Origin: a virus
Virus record (IMG/VR): IMGVR_UViG_3300047446_000087
Span: 1-21,184 of that record
DNA: 21,184 nucleotides
Reading direction: 5' to 3' (one strand)
Positions 12,121-21,013 of the stretch are shown here, piece by piece (the first letter of the stretch is position 1; every line of letters starts with the position of its first letter). The position numbers and the translations under genes were made by a program. Below the pieces are notes generated by a model. The model worked only from the letters and a program-made list of their open reading frames with translations, was not told the DNA's origin and did no database searches.

Positions 12121-13050
12121 ATGGCAACGAACGATTTCCTCCCGTTTGCAAACGGCGGCGGCGCTAACGTGTTGACGCAAGCGCAGTACGCAGCACTCAC
12201 CACGCTCCTGTCGGGCGGCTACCAATCCGGCGTCGCCAACTCGGCTCAAATGAACAAGACGTTGCGCCAGAGCTCGATCATGGCCGCCGTGCTTGGACAG
12301 TTCATTGCGAACCAAAGCGGTCAAAACGCAGTCGATGATGGCACGACCGCGACGTTGCTGGCGAATTTGAGTGCGGCTGTCGGTGTCGCTGCTCGCCAAA
12401 ATCCGGTATTGACCGACACTGGCGCCGCCAATGCCTACGCTGTCGCCAATCTCTCTGCGTTCACTGCGTACCCGACCGTCTCGGGCCTGACGATCGACGT
12501 CAGCATTGCGAATGCGAACACGGGGGCCTCGACGCTTAATGTCGATGGACTTGGCGCCAAGCCAATTCTCGGCCTTGGACTGCAACCCCTCCAAGGCGGG
12601 GAACTGATCGTCAAAGGAGTGGCCAGTCTGCTGTATGTCGTGGCATCGACCGTCAATGGCGGCAACGGCGCTTGGATCTTGATGGAATGCACGGGCGCCG
12701 CCATTCAAGTCGCCCCCGGCACACAAAGCAATCACGCAGTCAACCTCGGACAGTTCACATCAAGCCAAAGCTCCAACGGCTACACGAAGTTGCCGAATGG
12801 GCTGATCATTCAATGGATGATCGGTGTCACTAATTCGAGTGGTCTGGTGTCGCAGGCATGGCCGATCGCATTCCCGAATAACCTGTTCGTCGCCGTTGCG
12901 AATTATCTTGACGGTGGGACAGCGACCGCCGCTAACATCGGCAATATCTCCAGCAATTCGAACGCCACGACTTGCGCAGTCAATGTGGGAACTGCGGCGG
13001 GCGCCCCTGTTACGTCAGCCAACGTCAGAGTCATCGCGATCGGGAATTAA
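12121..13050 (+). CDS. Tail fiber protein
   Basis: This 309-residue tail fiber recognises the host surface. The N-terminus 'MATNDFLPFANGGGANVLTQAQYAALTTLLSGGYQSGVANSAQMNKTLRQSSIMAAVLGQFIANQSG' is the common baseplate-attachment part of Burkholderia-type phage fibers. The middle has 'STLNVDGLGAKPI'-type repeats. The C-terminal 'NGYTKLPNGLIIQWMIG' and 'QAWPIAFPNNLFVAVAN' match the gp53-like fiber tip domain that binds receptors. CCGGAG lies 7 bases before the ATG. The next gene, 1 base later, encodes its assembly chaperone. Confidence 0.85.
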   Translation: MATNDFLPFANGGGANVLTQAQYAALTTLLSGGYQSGVANSAQMNKTLRQSSIMAAVLGQFIANQSGQNAVDDGTTATLLANLSAAVGVAARQNPVLTDTGAANAYAVANLSAFTAYPTVSGLTIDVSIANANTGASTLNVDGLGAKPILGLGLQPLQGGELIVKGVASLLYVVASTVNGGNGAWILMECTGAAIQVAPGTQSNHAVNLGQFTSSQSSNGYTKLPNGLIIQWMIGVTNSSGLVSQAWPIAFPNNLFVAVANYLDGGTATAANIGNISSNSNATTCAVNVGTAAGAPVTSANVRVIAIGN

Positions 13051-13051
13051 T

Positions 13052-13609
13052 ATGAGCCAGAAATACGCAGCATACAATTCCACGGGCACTATCGTCGCGT
13101 TCTACGACAGCGTTGATAGTCCCGCTCCTGTCGGGGCGTCGACGATCGAGATCACTGACGATCAGTGGCTTGAATGCCTCGCCACTCAGGGCTACACCGT
13201 GTCGAATGGCACGCTCGCCGCGCCGGCTGAGCCAACTGCAGCGGACCTGCTCGCAATGACGCAGGCTGCGAAGATCGCTGAGGTGTATTCAGCCTATCAG
13301 GCTGCCGTGCAGGTGTCGGTCGAATATACGACTGTGGCGGGTGTCGGCAAGACGTATCAGGCCGACTCCGCAAGCCAGAACACTTTACTGATCGCAACGA
13401 CCGGATACAACCTGGCTGGCGCGACGCCGACGGGTTTCTACTGGGTGGCAGAAGACAACACGCAAGTGCCATTTACGCTCGATGACCTAAAGGGCTTGTA
13501 TGGCGTAATGCTCACGCAAGGCAATGCTGCGTTCAACAAACTCCAAGCGCTCAAGGCCAGCGTTCGATCTGCCACATCCGTATCCGTAGCGGCAGCGGTT
13601 GCATGGTAG
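13052..13609 (+). CDS. Tail fiber assembly chaperone, DUF4376-like
   Basis: This 185-residue protein probably helps fold and trimerise the adjacent fiber. It opens 'MSQKYAAYNSTGTIVAFYDSVDSPAP' and 'IEITDDQWLECLATQGYTVSNGTL', the usual N-terminal part of tail fiber assembly proteins. 'LLAMTQAAKIAEVYSAYQAA' leads into the DUF4376-type C-terminal part with 'TPTGFYWVAEDNTQVPFTLDDLKGLYGVMLTQGNAAFNKLQALKASV'. The ATG is 1 base after the fiber stop. A longer in-frame reading from 12824 overlaps the fiber gene and is rejected. It is the last plus-strand gene before the cargo block. Confidence 0.85.
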   Translation: MSQKYAAYNSTGTIVAFYDSVDSPAPVGASTIEITDDQWLECLATQGYTVSNGTLAAPAEPTAADLLAMTQAAKIAEVYSAYQAAVQVSVEYTTVAGVGKTYQADSASQNTLLIATTGYNLAGATPTGFYWVAEDNTQVPFTLDDLKGLYGVMLTQGNAAFNKLQALKASVRSATSVSVAAAVAW

Positions 13610-13751: not shown

Positions 13752-14681
13752 CTAGACGGCGCGCCCCTCTGCGCGACCGCAGAGTTCGTAATGGTGGGCG
13801 CCAGAAACGAACTGGCCGGTAGCGACTGCGCTGGCGACGTCGGGATATTTGGCCAGATACGCCTGCTCAAACTCGGCGCGCTTGAATGCCGATTCCGGAA
13901 CCTCCTGGATGGGCCGGTCAATCCAGTAACCGCATGACTTCGTTTTCAGTTTGGAGTCGAGCGTCCTAGCGTCTGCTTCCGAGAAGTAATGAAAGACTAG
14001 CGACTTTCGCGTGCGGGTCGGGTCAGCAATAGGGCCGCCGCCGTGCAGAAGGTTGGCGTGCCAGATCAGTACGTCGCCCTTCCTGGCGAAAAATGTCGTC
14101 TTTTCGAGGCCATGGCTCTCAACCTGCCTATCCATGTAGGAATGCCACTGCGGCATTTCTTCGGGTACAAAGTGGCGGCTTCCATTGCTGAAGATCATTT
14201 GTTCGATTTTGTGGCTACCGGGGTAGTATTCGAGTTGCCCCGCATCCACATGTGCGTCCTCAAGCGCCACCCAGATAGCAATCAGGTGGTCATTGGTCTT
14301 TGGCGTCATGTAGATCGCATCCACGTGTGCGGGCTGCTGGCTCCCCTGCTCAAAATACAGGCTATTGCAAAGCGCGGGCGCGTTCCCCAGCAAGTCCTTC
14401 AGAACTGCTGCGATGCGCTCCGACAGCGCCAGTTCGCGAACATTCTCCATGTCCAGATAAAGATCGTTGATCTTCATCCGACGACTCTCGATCTCGCGCT
14501 CAGAGAGAAGGCCAAGCAGGCTGCGCTCGCCAGTGTCCAGAAGATCGACCGTCACGTTCAGGGGCCGATTGAGCTTGCGCCTGGCAATCGATTCAACTAC
14601 CTCGTCGATCTCGGAAGCTGAGTAGAACGATGGCAGGATGGCAAATCCCTGCTCGTCAAAGTTTTTTTTGATATTGGTCAT
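13752..14681 (-). CDS. Fe(II)/2-oxoglutarate dioxygenase, phytanoyl-CoA dioxygenase-like, with C-terminal module
   Basis: This is a 309-residue cytosolic oxygenase of the PhyH-like type. 'FDEQGFAILPSFYSASEIDEVVESI' is the standard start. The metal site is visible as H119-x-D121 in 'QPAHVDAIYMT' and distal H213 in 'NLLHGGG'. An arginine in 'TRTRKSLVFHYF' (R223/R225) probably binds 2-oxoglutarate. 'VDAGQLEYYPGSHK' is also typical. The substrate is unknown. Residues about 271-306 form an extra C-terminal module (AYL...PDVA.AV..GQF.SG..HY...GR.EGR) that also opens the next gene's protein. The ATG at 14681 is chosen because the protein family starts there; an ATG at 14729 would add unrelated Arg-rich residues and lies only about 6 bases from the predicted transcript start. 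An AGGAGG at 14709-14714 is too distant to serve the chosen start. Surface-glycan or lipid modification in the lysogen is inferred. Confidence 0.82.
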   Translation of the reverse strand: MTNIKKNFDEQGFAILPSFYSASEIDEVVESIARRKLNRPLNVTVDLLDTGERSLLGLLSEREIESRRMKINDLYLDMENVRELALSERIAAVLKDLLGNAPALCNSLYFEQGSQQPAHVDAIYMTPKTNDHLIAIWVALEDAHVDAGQLEYYPGSHKIEQMIFSNGSRHFVPEEMPQWHSYMDRQVESHGLEKTTFFARKGDVLIWHANLLHGGGPIADPTRTRKSLVFHYFSEADARTLDSKLKTKSCGYWIDRPIQEVPESAFKRAEFEQAYLAKYPDVASAVATGQFVSGAHHYELCGRAEGRAV

Positions 14682-14741
14682 AACAGTGTCTTTCGGTAGC
14701 GCGCGTGGCCTCCTGCGTGCGGTTGGCATGATGCGCGCTGC

Positions 14742-14769
14742 ATTATAGTTGGACTACGGAGATTGTCGG
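14742..14769 (-). promoter_or_regulatory. Sigma70-type promoter for the dioxygenase gene
   Basis: On the minus strand a perfect -10 box TATAAT (14742-14747) lies 16 bases after CCGACA (14764-14769, four of six matches to TTGACA). The predicted start is near 14735, about 54 bases before the dioxygenase ATG. A consensus -10 suggests expression independent of phage late control. Confidence 0.65.
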
Positions 14770-14809
14770 ATTGTACTAGAAGCAAATATCGGCTCCGGCC
14801 CGTTTGCCG

Positions 14810-15751
14810 TCAGCGCTTAGTGGCGTGAATCACTGTGGCGCTCGCCAACTCCATGTTCTTCTCTTTCGAGAGAGTCCTGACAAACTTCCTGTCGAGAAAC
14901 GTGGCTGGAGCAGCCATCAAATCAGCTACCGTCATCGAGCGAAATTCAAACAACGCATCGCCATCAAGACCATCCGCCCAACTATTCAGCATCCATGACA
15001 GCGACCAGATGGGCAGCACTGAGTCTGGTACTTCATGTCGGTGAATTGATACATGCGGATCGAACAGGTTGCGAATGCCCTGCTCGCTCATGTTGTAGTA
15101 GTGATGCGGGTAGCCGTGCATGGGCTGAAGGAAAGGTACGCAGCACATCAGGTCTCCGCCCGGCTTCAGGATGCGGATGATTTCCTGTGCGCATTTGAAC
15201 GGATCCTTGACATGCTCGAGCACGGCGCTTGAGATAACTGCATCGAAACTGCCATCCTTGAAAGGCAATACTTCACCGACGCCTCGCACATCGGTACTGG
15301 GATAGGCGGCGACCTCGAAGTTGATCACGTTTTCATAGATGGTCGGACGACTGCCTGCGCCGCAGTCCAAAACCAGTCCGTGCCGATGTTTCTCAATCAG
15401 AGCCAGGACGTCGCCGTCGTAGCCATTGCTGCTAACGTTTTTTGTGTCGATGATATTGAACTGACTGCGTAATTCGTCAGTTAGGAAATCGAAAATATGA
15501 CCATCTTCTCGATATGGCGCATCACCGAGAAGATTCCGGATTTTCTCTTTCCGGTTCCCTTTTTCTAACTCTGCAATTGAGCGCGTCTGACGCCGATGAC
15601 TTTCATTCTTGCCGAACATCATGTAATGCATACGGCCTGACTTGAAGCCGCCACCACGCACAGCGTCCGCTATATCGGCATTGGCATCCAGATAGGCGGC
15701 CTCACAGTATGTGAGCGGAGAGATTTGTTCTACATCGTTGGCGTCAGTCAT
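14810..15751 (-). CDS. Class I SAM-dependent methyltransferase with N-terminal module
   Basis: This is a 313-residue methyltransferase of the Methyltransf_11/23 pattern. Motif I is 'LVLDCGAGSR' (about 126-135). 'EVLPFKDGSFDAVISSAVLEHVKDPFKCAQEIIRILKPGG' follows, with the usual acidic and LEHV motifs. Then comes 'FLQPMHGYPHHYYNMSEQGIRNLF', common in enzymes acting on surface polysaccharides or their precursors. Residues about 14-50 are a separate module (AYL...AD.ADAVRGG.FKSG..HY..FGK.E) matching the C-terminal tail of the dioxygenase. The ATG at 15751 has a weak ribosome binding site. The gap to the dioxygenase is 128 bases and holds the latter's promoter. The coding region is visibly richer in A/T than the tail genes, which hints at separate acquisition. 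The substrate is unknown. Confidence 0.8.
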   Translation of the reverse strand: MTDANDVEQISPLTYCEAAYLDANADIADAVRGGGFKSGRMHYMMFGKNESHRRQTRSIAELEKGNRKEKIRNLLGDAPYREDGHIFDFLTDELRSQFNIIDTKNVSSNGYDGDVLALIEKHRHGLVLDCGAGSRPTIYENVINFEVAAYPSTDVRGVGEVLPFKDGSFDAVISSAVLEHVKDPFKCAQEIIRILKPGGDLMCCVPFLQPMHGYPHHYYNMSEQGIRNLFDPHVSIHRHEVPDSVLPIWSLSWMLNSWADGLDGDALFEFRSMTVADLMAAPATFLDRKFVRTLSKEKNMELASATVIHATKR

Positions 15752-16128: not shown

Positions 16129-16848
16129 TCACCATGTATAGTTCAGCGACAGCATGAATTCGCCCTTTATGCCGGCTGGCACGTCGGAGCTATCCGCCTT
16201 GTAAGCGACAGGGGCATAGAGATAGTTCGCGCGGATCGCGATGGGCCCGCGGGACACGTTGACTCCCGCTAGAGCGCCTAGCTGGACTTGCGGTTGATGG
16301 GATAGCGTTTCCTGCGTGCCGGCCGGCCCAAAACGACCATCCGACATCGCAGTTGCGACGGAGGTCCACGTTGCGCGGTACAGCGCGGGGCCGGCTTCGA
16401 TGCCGAGTTGCCAGCCTCCGCCGATATTCCAGAATGGCTCCAGTGTGAGCGCGATGGCTTGAATCCCGCCCGTGCTGTCGAACTTCCGGAACACGCCGCA
16501 GTTATCGTCGATGCATGCGCCAGTCTTGACGTTGTAGCCTCCCTGCTGGCCGATGCTGGAGAAGTCGGCCTCGTCTTGAGGGTTCATACTCGACCATTTG
16601 ACCTTGCCGAAGTTGTAATAATCGGCATGCATGCGCAAGCCCGGCATGATGGATCGTCCCGGCGCATCAATAAGGTTCATCACCACGCCGACACGACCGC
16701 CCCATGAACCATTCGGCGTTGAGTGGCTGAAGCCCTTGGAATAGAAGATGCCGTCGCCGACCTTCTGCGCGGATGTCACGCCAAGGCCGGCCTCGATCTG
16801 GAAGAAACTCTCAGCGCGCGCACTCACTGCGGCACAGCCGAGCGTCAT
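16129..16848 (-). CDS. Outer-membrane beta-barrel protein (moron)
   Basis: This is a 239-residue protein with export and barrel features: a signal-like 'MTLGCAAVSARAES' start, then alternating strands such as 'FFQIEAGLGVTSAQ', 'SWGGRVGVVMNLI', 'GLRMHADYYNFGKVKW', 'WQLGIEAGPALYRATW' and 'IAIRANYLYAPVAY'. It ends 'KGEFMLSLNYTW', the aromatic C-terminus typical of proteins assembled by Bam. Two cysteines ('GACIDDNCG') may form a loop disulfide. The ATG lies 2 bases after the HTH gene's stop (TAGCCATG). The signal peptide from this ATG is unusually short; the hydrophobic stretch continues upstream in frame ('WRTAAIA') but without a standard start codon. A role in altering the lysogen's surface or blocking phage adsorption is inferred. 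Confidence 0.7.
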   Translation of the reverse strand: MTLGCAAVSARAESFFQIEAGLGVTSAQKVGDGIFYSKGFSHSTPNGSWGGRVGVVMNLIDAPGRSIMPGLRMHADYYNFGKVKWSSMNPQDEADFSSIGQQGGYNVKTGACIDDNCGVFRKFDSTGGIQAIALTLEPFWNIGGGWQLGIEAGPALYRATWTSVATAMSDGRFGPAGTQETLSHQPQVQLGALAGVNVSRGPIAIRANYLYAPVAYKADSSDVPAGIKGEFMLSLNYTW

Positions 16849-16850
16849 GG

Positions 16851-17147
16851 CTATGGCTGCGGTTCTCCATCCTGCTCCGGGGCAGGATCGGCGCTGGGGT
16901 CTAGCACCGCTCCGGCCTCTCGCATCGCGTCGTACACGGTCTCGATGTCTTTCTGCTTGAGAACGCGATGAGCCATGGCCCAGAACAGCATGTGCATGCT
17001 CACCACACGAGGCTTCTTCCCGCCCGTGTATTTCCGGTATTGCTTGTCGCTGGATACGCCGAGCAACTTGGCCATTTGGGCACCGGTAAAGCCGAGCCCC
17101 TTCTGAAGGCGCGCCAAGTCGTCGGTCGTGAGAGCCTTGTAGAGCAT
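16851..17147 (-). CDS. HTH (XRE-like) transcriptional regulator
   Basis: This is a 98-residue DNA-binding protein: 'LTTDDLARLQKGLGFTGAQMAKLLGVSSDKQYRKYTGGKKPRVV' is a helix-turn-helix of the Cro/XRE type, followed by 'MHMLFWAMAHRVLKQKDIETVYDAM'. The frame extends upstream to a GTG at 17180 with coding-like residues (VPPRAQLDEPF). A good ribosome binding site (AAAGGAAG) stands before an ATG at 17196, but that ATG is in another frame. A single-base change near 17181-17185 would join them, so the true start is uncertain. The protein likely controls its own promoter at 17250-17278, which contains a palindrome, and thereby the outer-membrane protein gene behind it. Confidence 0.65.
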   Translation of the reverse strand: MLYKALTTDDLARLQKGLGFTGAQMAKLLGVSSDKQYRKYTGGKKPRVVSMHMLFWAMAHRVLKQKDIETVYDAMREAGAVLDPSADPAPEQDGEPQP

Positions 17148-17249
17148 GAAGGGTTCGTCCAATTGTGCGCGCGGCGGCACGAAAAGAGTATTTCATGGTT
17201 CTTCCTTTCGGAGATGGCGGGTTGCCGGGAAGGCCTCCCTGTGCTGAAA

Positions 17250-17278
17250 ATATTAGCCCCATTGGGGTCCAAAGTCAA
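17250..17278 (-). promoter_or_regulatory. Promoter with palindromic operator for the HTH/outer-membrane unit
   Basis: On the minus strand TTGACT (17273-17278) and TAATAT (17250-17255) are separated by 17 bases. The spacer contains the palindrome CCCCATTGGGG (17257-17267), a likely operator for the downstream HTH protein. The predicted start near 17243 leaves about 46 bases before the ATG at 17196 with its AAAGGAAG site. Confidence 0.65.
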
Positions 17279-17344: not shown

Positions 17345-17779
17345 TCAGGCGGTTTGGAAGAATACGGCTGGGCTCACGTGGAACCGTCGCGACAATCCGG
17401 AAATCTGGCGCGTGTTGAGTTCGCGCTTACCGCTCAGAATCTCTGACACCACTCCTTGGCTACCTATCTCCGGCAGATCGGACTGGCGCACATCGTTCTC
17501 CAGCATCAGTTGCTTCAGAACATCAGCCGGCGACGCCTCTGGTAGCTGATGGTGTGAGGCATCGTATTCGCCGATAAAGTCGCCGAGCGTATCAGCTAGG
17601 GGTGCCAAGCGATGGCCTTCGTCGGCAGCGCCGGCATCAAGAAGCGCGTTCAGTGCGCGCACGGCAAAGTCATATTCAAGATCCGAATTGATCGGATGCA
17701 GCGGCACCTTCTGTGAGATGGCCTCGAAATGGGTAGCCAACTCTTCAATGTCGTCTCGCGAAAATTTCAAGGCTTCCAT
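17345..17779 (-). CDS. higA: HigA-type antitoxin with XRE HTH domain
   Basis: This 144-residue antitoxin has an N-terminal helical part ('FSRDDIEELATHFEAISQKVPLHPINSDLEYDFAVRALNALLD') typical of the long HigA type. Its C-terminal HTH (about 84-140) contains 'VLKQLMLENDVRQSDLPEIGSQGVVSEILSGKRELNTRQISGLSRRFHVSPAVFF'. It neutralises the HigB toxin and represses the operon. The toxin gene lies upstream and overlaps by 13 bases, the inverted toxin-first order normal for higBA. AAGGAGT stands about 8 bases before the ATG, within the toxin coding region. An intrinsic terminator follows. In a prophage this pair would favour retention of the element or abort infection by other phages. Confidence 0.85.
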   Translation of the reverse strand: MEALKFSRDDIEELATHFEAISQKVPLHPINSDLEYDFAVRALNALLDAGAADEGHRLAPLADTLGDFIGEYDASHHQLPEASPADVLKQLMLENDVRQSDLPEIGSQGVVSEILSGKRELNTRQISGLSRRFHVSPAVFFQTA

Positions 17780-18048
17780 TTGTCGTACTCCTTGTGCGTG
17801 AAAACATGTCGCACATATAGCTTCTGCACGTTGAAGTGCACGGCTGCAACCAGCCTGAATTTGTTGCCGCCAATATCAAACACGTAGAACGCTCCGACCT
17901 TGTCGGCGGCATTGAACGCCCGCTTCAGGTCCGCGAAACTTGCGAACGTTCCCGCCTCAATCGTCTTGCGCCAGATCTGGAGCGGCACGCCCGCATCCGG
18001 GTGTCTGGCGGCGAACTCGATCAGGGCTTTGTTGGATATGACTCGCAT
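17767..18048 (-). CDS. higB: HigB-type mRNA interferase toxin
   Basis: This 93-residue toxin of the RelE-like HigB family cleaves mRNA on the ribosome. The full family pattern is visible: 'MRVISNKALIEFAARHPDA', 'PLQIWRKTIEAGTFASFADLKRAF', 'VFDIGGNKFRLVAAVHFNVQKLYVRHVFTHKEYDKW'. The ATG at 18048 gives the usual family length; the frame reaches 18108, but the added residues are not family-like and would cross the operator. It overlaps higA by 13 bases. A perfect 8-bp inverted repeat starts 9 bases upstream of the ATG and is the likely HigA binding site. Confidence 0.88.
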   Translation of the reverse strand: MRVISNKALIEFAARHPDAGVPLQIWRKTIEAGTFASFADLKRAFNAADKVGAFYVFDIGGNKFRLVAAVHFNVQKLYVRHVFTHKEYDKWKP

Positions 18049-18057
18049 GCACGAACA

Positions 18058-18076
18058 GTATCTCAGCTTGAGATAC
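18058..18076 (-). promoter_or_regulatory. Candidate HigA operator upstream of higB
   Basis: GTATCTCA-GCT-TGAGATAC is a perfect inverted repeat with 8-base arms. A smaller repeat AACAA-GAG-TTGTT follows at 18079-18091. The position just upstream of the higB start fits autoregulation by a HigA dimer. The -35 and -10 boxes around it are poor, so I do not define the promoter exactly. Confidence 0.65.
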
Positions 18077-18106
18077 ACAACAAGAGTTGTTACAAATTGA
18101 CCATCC

Positions 18107-18130
18107 AAGCCGCCCTCGAGCGGCTTTTTT
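18107..18130 (+). terminator. Hairpin with T-tract before the lysis genes (cassette copy 4)
   Basis: A perfect 7-bp stem AAGCCGC / GCGGCTT with a 6-base loop runs into a T-tract (18125-18130). It is followed by CATTTCCGGGG ahead of the holin-like gene. On the plus strand it resembles an intrinsic terminator. It lies in the gap between divergent higB and the lysis genes. Confidence 0.65.
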
Positions 18131-19576: not shown

Positions 19577-21013
19577 GTGGGTAGCCTATCCGGTTCAACC
19601 GTTGTCAACACGTCCGCGGTAAATCTCTCGTCGCCCGCGCAGACGGACTGGATCCAGTTCCCGCAGAGCGCGACAAGCCCGAACCGAAAGAGCGGCGGCG
19701 GCTCGACCATCTCCTTGCCTACCGCTATCGGTACTGGCGTTACGCTTGGCGGCTACGGACCCGATGCACGGAGCGTTACGTGGACAGATGGCACGCCGAC
19801 CACCAGCGCCACGAGCGGGGACGGGATCTTCACCCCGGCGTCAGGTTCGGCGGTGGTCGGCAATGGTCTTCAGTTCACCGTCCCCGCCGATACCACGACA
19901 CGCACAGTCGTCATTGCGTGGGGAATGTACGGCGGCGACACCGGGGCGAATACTGCTGCGGCGAAGCTGGTCGCCACACTGTCGGACGGCAGTGCTACTG
20001 CGGTTACGCACACGCCCACTGGTGTAGCGGCTGGCGTATCCACTGACTACCTCACGACGCTCACGTACGGCGCGAACAGCGCGAGTCAGACGCTCAACCT
20101 CGCAGTTACGCTAACCACGGTCAACGCGGGTGCTGGGAATTTCTGTAACGTCACGGTCCAGGCTGCGAAGGTGCTTGCGTCGGCGAGCAATAGCGCACTC
20201 GCAAGCGGAACGCTGGGAGGTCTGAACTCGTCGACTACCGCCGCTTCATCCCGTTCCGCATTGGCCTCCGGAACACTGGGGGCATTCGCATCTTCTGCGA
20301 CAGCGGTAATCGCCGCAGCGGCTGTTTCGATGTCGTCGCTCGGTGGCCTGTCTTCGCAGGGAGTCGCATCACAGTCGCGCATAGGTTCGGCAGCGAGTGT
20401 GATGGGCGCCTTGTCGTCTAGCGGCACTGGCGTGCAATCTCGGACCAGTACTGCGAACAGTGCGCTTGGCGCATTCTCGTCGAGTGTCATTGCAAGCAAC
20501 ACATCGAACACAACGGCAGTTGCAGCTTCAGTTCTAGGGGCGCTTTCTTCAAGTGGGCAGGCCGCGCAGGCATCGTCCGCTGCGGCTTCGCCGGCACTCG
20601 GCGCACTTGCGTCGGGCATCACAGGAACGCAGCATCGCTCCGCCGCGGCAAACAGTTCGCTTTCGTTGCTTGCTGCGGGATCGGCGACACAGAATTTGGC
20701 GGCGAATGTCGGATCAACGCTTGGTGCGCTGTCATCCAGTGCATCAGTGATTGCTGTCCCGAACAATTGGGCAATAGCATCCGGCGCCCTAGGCGCCTTG
20801 CAGTCGGCCGGTTCGCTTGCCTGCTTGCAGAGCGCTTATATATCGGCCGGACTAGGCGCGCTGTCGTCATCGGTTGAAGCTCGTTCGATTCCGCCTATCA
20901 TCCTTGATGCGGACATCTTCCACGTCTCCGCAGAGAACCGCCTATTTACGGTCGCTGGCGAGACGCGGACATACGTTGTGCTGCCTGAAACGCGAGTGTT
21001 CAAAGTCGGATAA
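19577..21013 (+). CDS. Repeat-rich fiber-like structural protein
   Basis: This 478-residue protein has three parts. Residues about 1-200 are a beta-sandwich-like region ('VTWTDGTPTTSATSGDGIFTP', 'LQFTVPADTTTRTVVIAWGMYGGD', 'TLNLAVTLTTVNA'). Residues about 204-433 are some eleven copies of a 21-residue repeat around L-G-A-L-S-S-S. The last 30 residues carry three short 'E-x-R-x-F/Y-x-V' units. Composition is Ala/Ser/Gly-rich and almost free of Lys. The start is a GTG with GAGGG about 7 bases upstream. No signal peptide is visible, so it is more likely a virion protein than a host adhesin. A long, regular fiber or stalk role is inferred. The next gene looks like a fiber-tail adaptor, which supports this. 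Confidence 0.7.
   Translation: MGSLSGSTVVNTSAVNLSSPAQTDWIQFPQSATSPNRKSGGGSTISLPTAIGTGVTLGGYGPDARSVTWTDGTPTTSATSGDGIFTPASGSAVVGNGLQFTVPADTTTRTVVIAWGMYGGDTGANTAAAKLVATLSDGSATAVTHTPTGVAAGVSTDYLTTLTYGANSASQTLNLAVTLTTVNAGAGNFCNVTVQAAKVLASASNSALASGTLGGLNSSTTAASSRSALASGTLGAFASSATAVIAAAAVSMSSLGGLSSQGVASQSRIGSAASVMGALSSSGTGVQSRTSTANSALGAFSSSVIASNTSNTTAVAASVLGALSSSGQAAQASSAAASPALGALASGITGTQHRSAAANSSLSLLAAGSATQNLAANVGSTLGALSSSASVIAVPNNWAIASGALGALQSAGSLACLQSAYISAGLGALSSSVEARSIPPIILDADIFHVSAENRLFTVAGETRTYVVLPETRVFKVG
20186..20875 (+). repeat. Tandem 63-bp coding repeats (21-residue units)
   Basis: The motif [LM]-G-[AG]-[LF] recurs at residues 213, 234, 255, 276, 297, 320, 341, 362 (as LSLL), 382, 405 and 426 of the host protein, so the spacing is 20-23 with 21 most frequent. 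The DNA of the copies has diverged, so the repeat is kept mainly at protein level. Confidence 0.8.

Follow-up and report, generated by a model that had tools for sequence, protein, structure and literature searches.

Why would two neighbouring cargo genes of a bacteriophage, encoding enzymes with unrelated catalytic domains, carry the same short module? The genes lie in an IMG/VR virus record, the origin of the DNA analysed here (21,184 nucleotides, hereafter called the window). We propose, with moderate confidence, that they form the conversion cassette of a Magia-like temperate phage, and that both enzymes use the shared module on a common surface-glycan substrate or assembly complex.

The phage and its cargo slot

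The window phage is Magia-like, of the Burkholderia type. Its baseplate and tail genes have 66–67% DNA identity to those of the Burkholderia phages Magia and BgManors32, and because of this resemblance its host is probably a relative of Burkholderia. Magia, in which an integrase is also present, is described as temperate (PMC7883833); we infer the lifestyle of the window phage from that of Magia.

The plus-strand tail operon includes a tail fibre gene (12121–13050; PHROG 11303 tail fiber protein, 3.7e-68), downstream of which the cargo slot starts. The final gene of the operon ahead of the cargo encodes a tail-fibre-associated DUF4376 protein (13052–13609, plus strand; Pfam DUF4376, 2.4e-15). 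Minus-strand cargo then follows, as expected of a phage cassette for serotype conversion or surface modification. The depositors of the Magia genome annotated an O-acetyltransferase and an esterase in the corresponding stretch beyond the tail fibre; the Magia genome paper mentions neither. Similarly, six of ten candidate cargo proteins scanned in related phage loci belong to Acyl_transf_3 (L178, L181, L183, L185, L193 and L194), each encoded downstream of the tail fibre. An accessory gene of the acyltransferase 3 family has also been reported from a Magia-like prophage in a published survey (PMC12860723). Among twelve window proteins scanned against Pfam, none matched an acyltransferase or a Gtr-type glucosyltransferase.

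The cargo of the window is a methyltransferase and an oxygenase, adjacent on the minus strand and opposed to the tail operon: the methyltransferase gene runs from 15751 to 14810 and is followed by the oxygenase gene from 14729 to 13752. The initial annotation had called this pairing unusual for a phage. That view is supported by 38 related phage loci, in none of which was a PhyH or methyltransferase relative found downstream of the tail region. Public phage genomes gave no PhyH match to the oxygenase and only partial, weak matches to the methyltransferase. Our searches turned up neither a second PhyH enzyme with the module nor a second such pair, and searches of the open-access literature gave nothing usable on the module motif or on phage PhyH/methyltransferase cargo. 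In the related phage L180, a polytopic-looking protein encoded in this slot matched the module partially, with 15 bits, which was judged to be due to chance.

Other genes surround the pair. An ORF at 16129–17262 (minus strand) is secreted-looking and resembles an outer-membrane beta-barrel in its C-terminal half; it is 32% identical (2e-33) to an ORF that occupies the equivalent slot in a related phage (L178:13036-14094), which itself weakly matches OMP_b-brl, under the cut-off. An Xre-like ORF (16851–17180) overlaps its N-terminal part in another frame, so the barrel-like protein probably starts further in, close to its signal peptide. At 17345–18108 (minus strand), a HigB-like toxin (Pfam HigB_toxin, 1e-26) and then an XRE/HigA-like ORF make up a toxin–antitoxin pair within the cargo region. 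A 478-residue ORF at 19577–21013 (plus strand), possibly a virion or fibre protein, contains many degenerate SALGALSSS-type repeats and has no Pfam match.

The two enzymes and their shared module

The oxygenase (325 residues, with a possible internal start at M17, position 14681) is a 2-oxoglutarate/Fe(II)-dependent enzyme of the PhyH family, matching Pfam PhyH (PF05721) at 2.6e-22 with 80.6 bits against a gathering score of 22. On alignment with relatives it keeps the metal-ligand motif HxD...H (H135/D137/H229) and the 2-oxoglutarate-binding arginine region at residues 239–241 (R239/R241), and by family it is a predicted hydroxylase. Immediately upstream of its ORF, on the same strand, lies a sigma-70-like sequence (CCGACA-16-TATAAT, 14742–14769) that is a consensus match only; three such sequences were found versus 2.2 expected in shuffles, which gives no evidence of function.

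The methyltransferase (313 residues), upstream of the oxygenase, is a class I SAM-dependent enzyme with a Methyltransf_11 match (9.9e-14), and its model has Foldseek matches to class I methyltransferases. Two motifs are conserved in relatives, LDCGAG (SAM-binding motif I, residue 128) and PFLQPxHGYPHHYYN. GC content is 52% over this gene versus 58–61% in the phage structural genes, a drop consistent with acquired cargo.

The initial annotation had placed a common module at the end of the oxygenase and the start of the methyltransferase (13764–13871 and 15602–15712). We confirmed it. When the whole proteins are compared by BLASTP, the module segment is matched (16 of 34 residues identical, E = 1e-5) and there is no credible match besides it; the local alignment score of the module is 70, with a maximum of 62 in 20,000 shuffles. 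Moreover, a profile built from 289 copies from bacterial genomes, to which neither the window nor phages contributed, detects both the C-terminal copy of the oxygenase (residues 288–325; 13755–13868, minus strand; 55.9 bits, 9e-17) and the N-terminal copy of the methyltransferase (residues 17–50; 15602–15703, minus strand; 43.4 bits, 7e-13). Searching with the module alone thus finds significant similarity in both segments, not its absence, and the annotated coordinates agree with these core boundaries to within a few bases. Across the 579 ORFs of the window, the next best match to the profile has E = 2.5; there is no third copy. The copies do sit at opposite ends of their enzymes, as annotated, but this is not special: the module is also C-terminal on another methyltransferase (L093) and on a cytoplasmic-looking protein (L102).

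The module has about 38 residues with the consensus FDExxYLAxNPDVAAAVxAGxFxSGxxHxxxxGxxEGR. An AlphaFold2 prediction from 109 copies consists of three short helices with a mean pLDDT of 91.6. The corresponding helices in the full methyltransferase model span residues 17–23, 25–32 and 39–47; that model, made from seven sequences, has a middling pLDDT of 62.5, and no claim on how the module packs rests on it. Neither module alone matches Pfam, there is no credible match in NCBIfam, and the PDB yields neither a sequence match nor a fold match. Matches to DUF5338 in two carriers, L019 and L102, fall under the cut-off. The module is uncatalogued in these libraries.

Is the module part of either catalytic domain? 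It is absent from all 27 PhyH relatives checked, which rules out that it is an integral part of the PhyH fold. The closest homologue of the oxygenase (L259 from Oscillatoria princeps, 47% identical over 264 residues) and the second closest (L159, 41%) diverge or end exactly at the junction between oxygenase and module. Nine relatives of the methyltransferase have the module (L003, L120/L152, L141/L150, L151 with two copies, L153, L154, L155, L156 and L158) and five do not (the phage homologues L005 and L006, the genomic L157, and the cyanobacterial L262 and L263). The methyltransferase core seems to swap accessory domains, because in L262 (Oscillatoria sp. PCC 10802) and L263 (Laspinema) an N-terminal repeat of the CIDSPKLNE...GW type replaces the module. 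The idea that each segment might be integral to its own enzyme family therefore fails for the oxygenase and holds halfway for the methyltransferase, where the module is a common accessory; the annotation's description of it as non-catalytic stands, as it is separable from both enzymes.

The origin of the two copies was considered as well. Their DNA has only a 10-base block in common, and each copy is closer to modules of other proteins than to its counterpart; a recent tandem duplication within the cassette is thereby ruled out. The modules might instead be inherited baggage, functional in neither phage enzyme: the methyltransferase would have arrived with its usual N-terminal copy, and the oxygenase would have gained one by fusion in the same module-rich donor. 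Since the methyltransferase subfamily often has the module, that copy needs no special explanation, and the phage homologues L005 and L006 persist without one. We nevertheless think baggage unlikely, because the oxygenase copy is a clean terminal addition to a family in which 27 of 27 relatives lack it, yet it has kept the YL, PDVA, H, G and EGR positions, a pattern that suggests selection.

Carriers of the module in other genomes

The module occurs in 33 viral loci and in 79 loci of bacterial genomes, among Alpha-, Beta- and Gammaproteobacteria, Cyanobacteria, Acidobacteria, Desulfovibrio and Planctomycetes. It is usually found in tandem in secreted RTX-type proteins, the home of most copies. 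Of the 79 genome loci, 66 have at least three copies in their richest protein, and the median period is 43 residues. RTX calcium-binding repeats are present in 24 of 67 such multi-copy proteins scanned, and others have peptidase, beta-propeller, methyltransferase or glycosyltransferase domains. Single copies are carried by GT2 glycosyltransferases (L047, L118), by methyltransferases, at one end or the other (L043, L120, L092 and the C-terminal case L093), and by L102, which resembles a sulfotransferase by eye and has no catalytic Pfam match. The annotation's statement that such modules occur on glycosyltransferases and surface proteins was thus borne out, and methyltransferases and secreted proteins join the list.

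Phage structural proteins carry the module too. Normally single in tail-tip (J) proteins, it lies inside two of these central tail fibre proteins (residues 405–552 of L021 and 432–471 of L034), which work on the surface of the cell and in which it is a possible receptor-binding element. A further carrier, L009, is a probable tape measure protein.

The module is nevertheless rare. A scan with a 109-row profile (E ≤ 1e-6) gave matches in 9 of the 249 Pseudomonadota genomes sampled and in 6 of the 250 from Burkholderiales; each count includes the sampling centre, itself selected because it has the module. Because of this rarity, two adjacent module genes in a 21-kb phage record are not expected by chance. 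At least two module-bearing ORFs are present in 11 of the 79 loci, a proportion that does not carry over to genomes in general, since the loci were selected by the presence of a module. One of the carrier loci, L118, offers a precedent for the window, with neighbouring genes for unrelated enzymes that have one module copy each.

Such an arrangement would also fit docking of both enzymes on a common host protein, in an export or polymerising complex, in place of a glycan. Moreover, at L154, L153, L151 and L156, cytoplasmic enzymes with one module have ABC-type polysaccharide exporters, or permeases that resemble exporters, as neighbours (Pfam confirms the L154 ATPase only). We regard a single docking protein as somewhat unlikely, since the module is also found in secreted tandem arrays and phage tail-tip proteins, which have no common cytoplasmic partner. 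A glycan target would be our preference: for cytoplasmic enzymes, secreted proteins and phage tail tips alike, surface polysaccharide is a likelier common factor than any one protein. We tentatively extend this to the module as a miniature polysaccharide-binding domain that would act inside the cell on tailoring enzymes, outside it on tandem-repeat secreted proteins, and at tail tips in adsorption, and that here would bring both conversion enzymes to a single glycan of the host.

Proposed role of the pair and comparison with known systems

In the conversion cassette that we propose, the methyltransferase and the PhyH-type hydroxylase would modify an envelope polysaccharide of the host, most likely O-antigen or capsule. 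The module would act as a small binding domain and keep both enzymes on a shared target, either the growing glycan or a component of the machinery for its assembly or export. The altered glycan would change the surface of the lysogen and may thereby affect superinfection. It is possible that the two enzymes act in order, the oxygenase hydroxylating a sugar and the methyltransferase methylating the new hydroxyl.

A role in surface modification, which the initial annotation had also advanced, is favoured because the same slot holds acyltransferases in related phages and because chromosomal homologues of the methyltransferase lie in polysaccharide clusters. The window methyltransferase is 44–62% identical to module-bearing Methyltransf_11 enzymes (for example L120/L152 of Lysobacteraceae, and L154). 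The chromosomal gene for L154 adjoins genes for a polysaccharide pyruvyl transferase, GT2, WbsX and an ABC transporter. As judged by eye from translations, the neighbours of L153, L156, L158 and L263 are glycosyltransferase, sugar-nucleotide or sulfotransferase-like genes, those of L153 and L156 being of the glycosyltransferase and sugar-nucleotide-like kinds. Another prophage-like locus, L155, has a module-bearing methyltransferase together with terminase-, late control- and endolysin-like ORFs (by eye); there (L155:7160-8642) the methyltransferase adjoins a small ORF with a TPLQHYLRHGW-type sequence, of a kind seen beside glycosyltransferase domains.

These neighbourhoods and the slot also argue against the proposal that the pair serves in making or modifying some small molecule, by PhyH-type tailoring and methylation, with no tie to the cell surface. 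PhyH and Methyltransf_11 enzymes are common in small-molecule pathways too, and the oxygenase has a weak NCBIfam match, far under the cut-off, to TIGR01762 chlorinating enzymes. Halogenases of that type lack the HxD aspartate; the oxygenase retains it. Overall we find a small-molecule role improbable.

The substrate of the oxygenase is the weakest point of the conversion-cassette reading, because its nearest PhyH homologues, L259 and L159, have no evident polysaccharide cluster around them; the surroundings of a more distant relative (L126/L172) include an ABC transporter ATPase and a gene resembling a dTDP-sugar epimerase. That our searches gave no second example of the pair, or of a PhyH enzyme with the module, also counts against this reading, as does the abundance of the module in secreted RTX-type proteins, for which glycan binding is likewise conjectural. 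The original interpretation is thus partly supported: the module has stood as real, shared, detachable and recurrent, and the pairing as unusual, whereas a common partner of the two copies and sequential action of the enzymes are hypotheses.

If the module does bind surface polysaccharide or its assembly machinery, its sequence, which Pfam and NCBIfam lack, would serve as a marker for finding together enzymes that tailor polysaccharides, surface proteins with tandem repeats and receptor-binding proteins of phages. Oxidation and methylation would then join acetylation and glucosylation among the means by which temperate phages remodel host surfaces.

Several known systems resemble parts of this one. 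DUF4214 comprises short helical repeats of secreted proteins and sugar enzymes, and our module is likewise small and helical, forms tandem arrays in secreted proteins and is joined to sugar enzymes; however, it has no Pfam match to DUF4214 or any other family. PhyH (PF05721) oxygenases have the catalytic core of the window enzyme, with HxD...H and arginine, whereas its C-terminal module is seen in none of the 27 relatives. The Methyltransf_11 enzymes of polysaccharide clusters have the same N-terminal module as the window methyltransferase, but they are chromosomal (L120/L152, L154), and no adjacent PhyH partner was found for them. Also comparable is the Acyl_transf_3 O-acetyltransferase cargo of Magia-like Burkholderia phages, which shares the phage type, the slot downstream of the tail fibre and a predicted change of surface glycan; the window has an oxygenase and a methyltransferase, both with the accessory module, in place of the acyltransferase. 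Surface-modifying cargo is thus already known in phages, and an oxygenase and methyltransferase with a common accessory module are, as far as our searches show, a new form of it.
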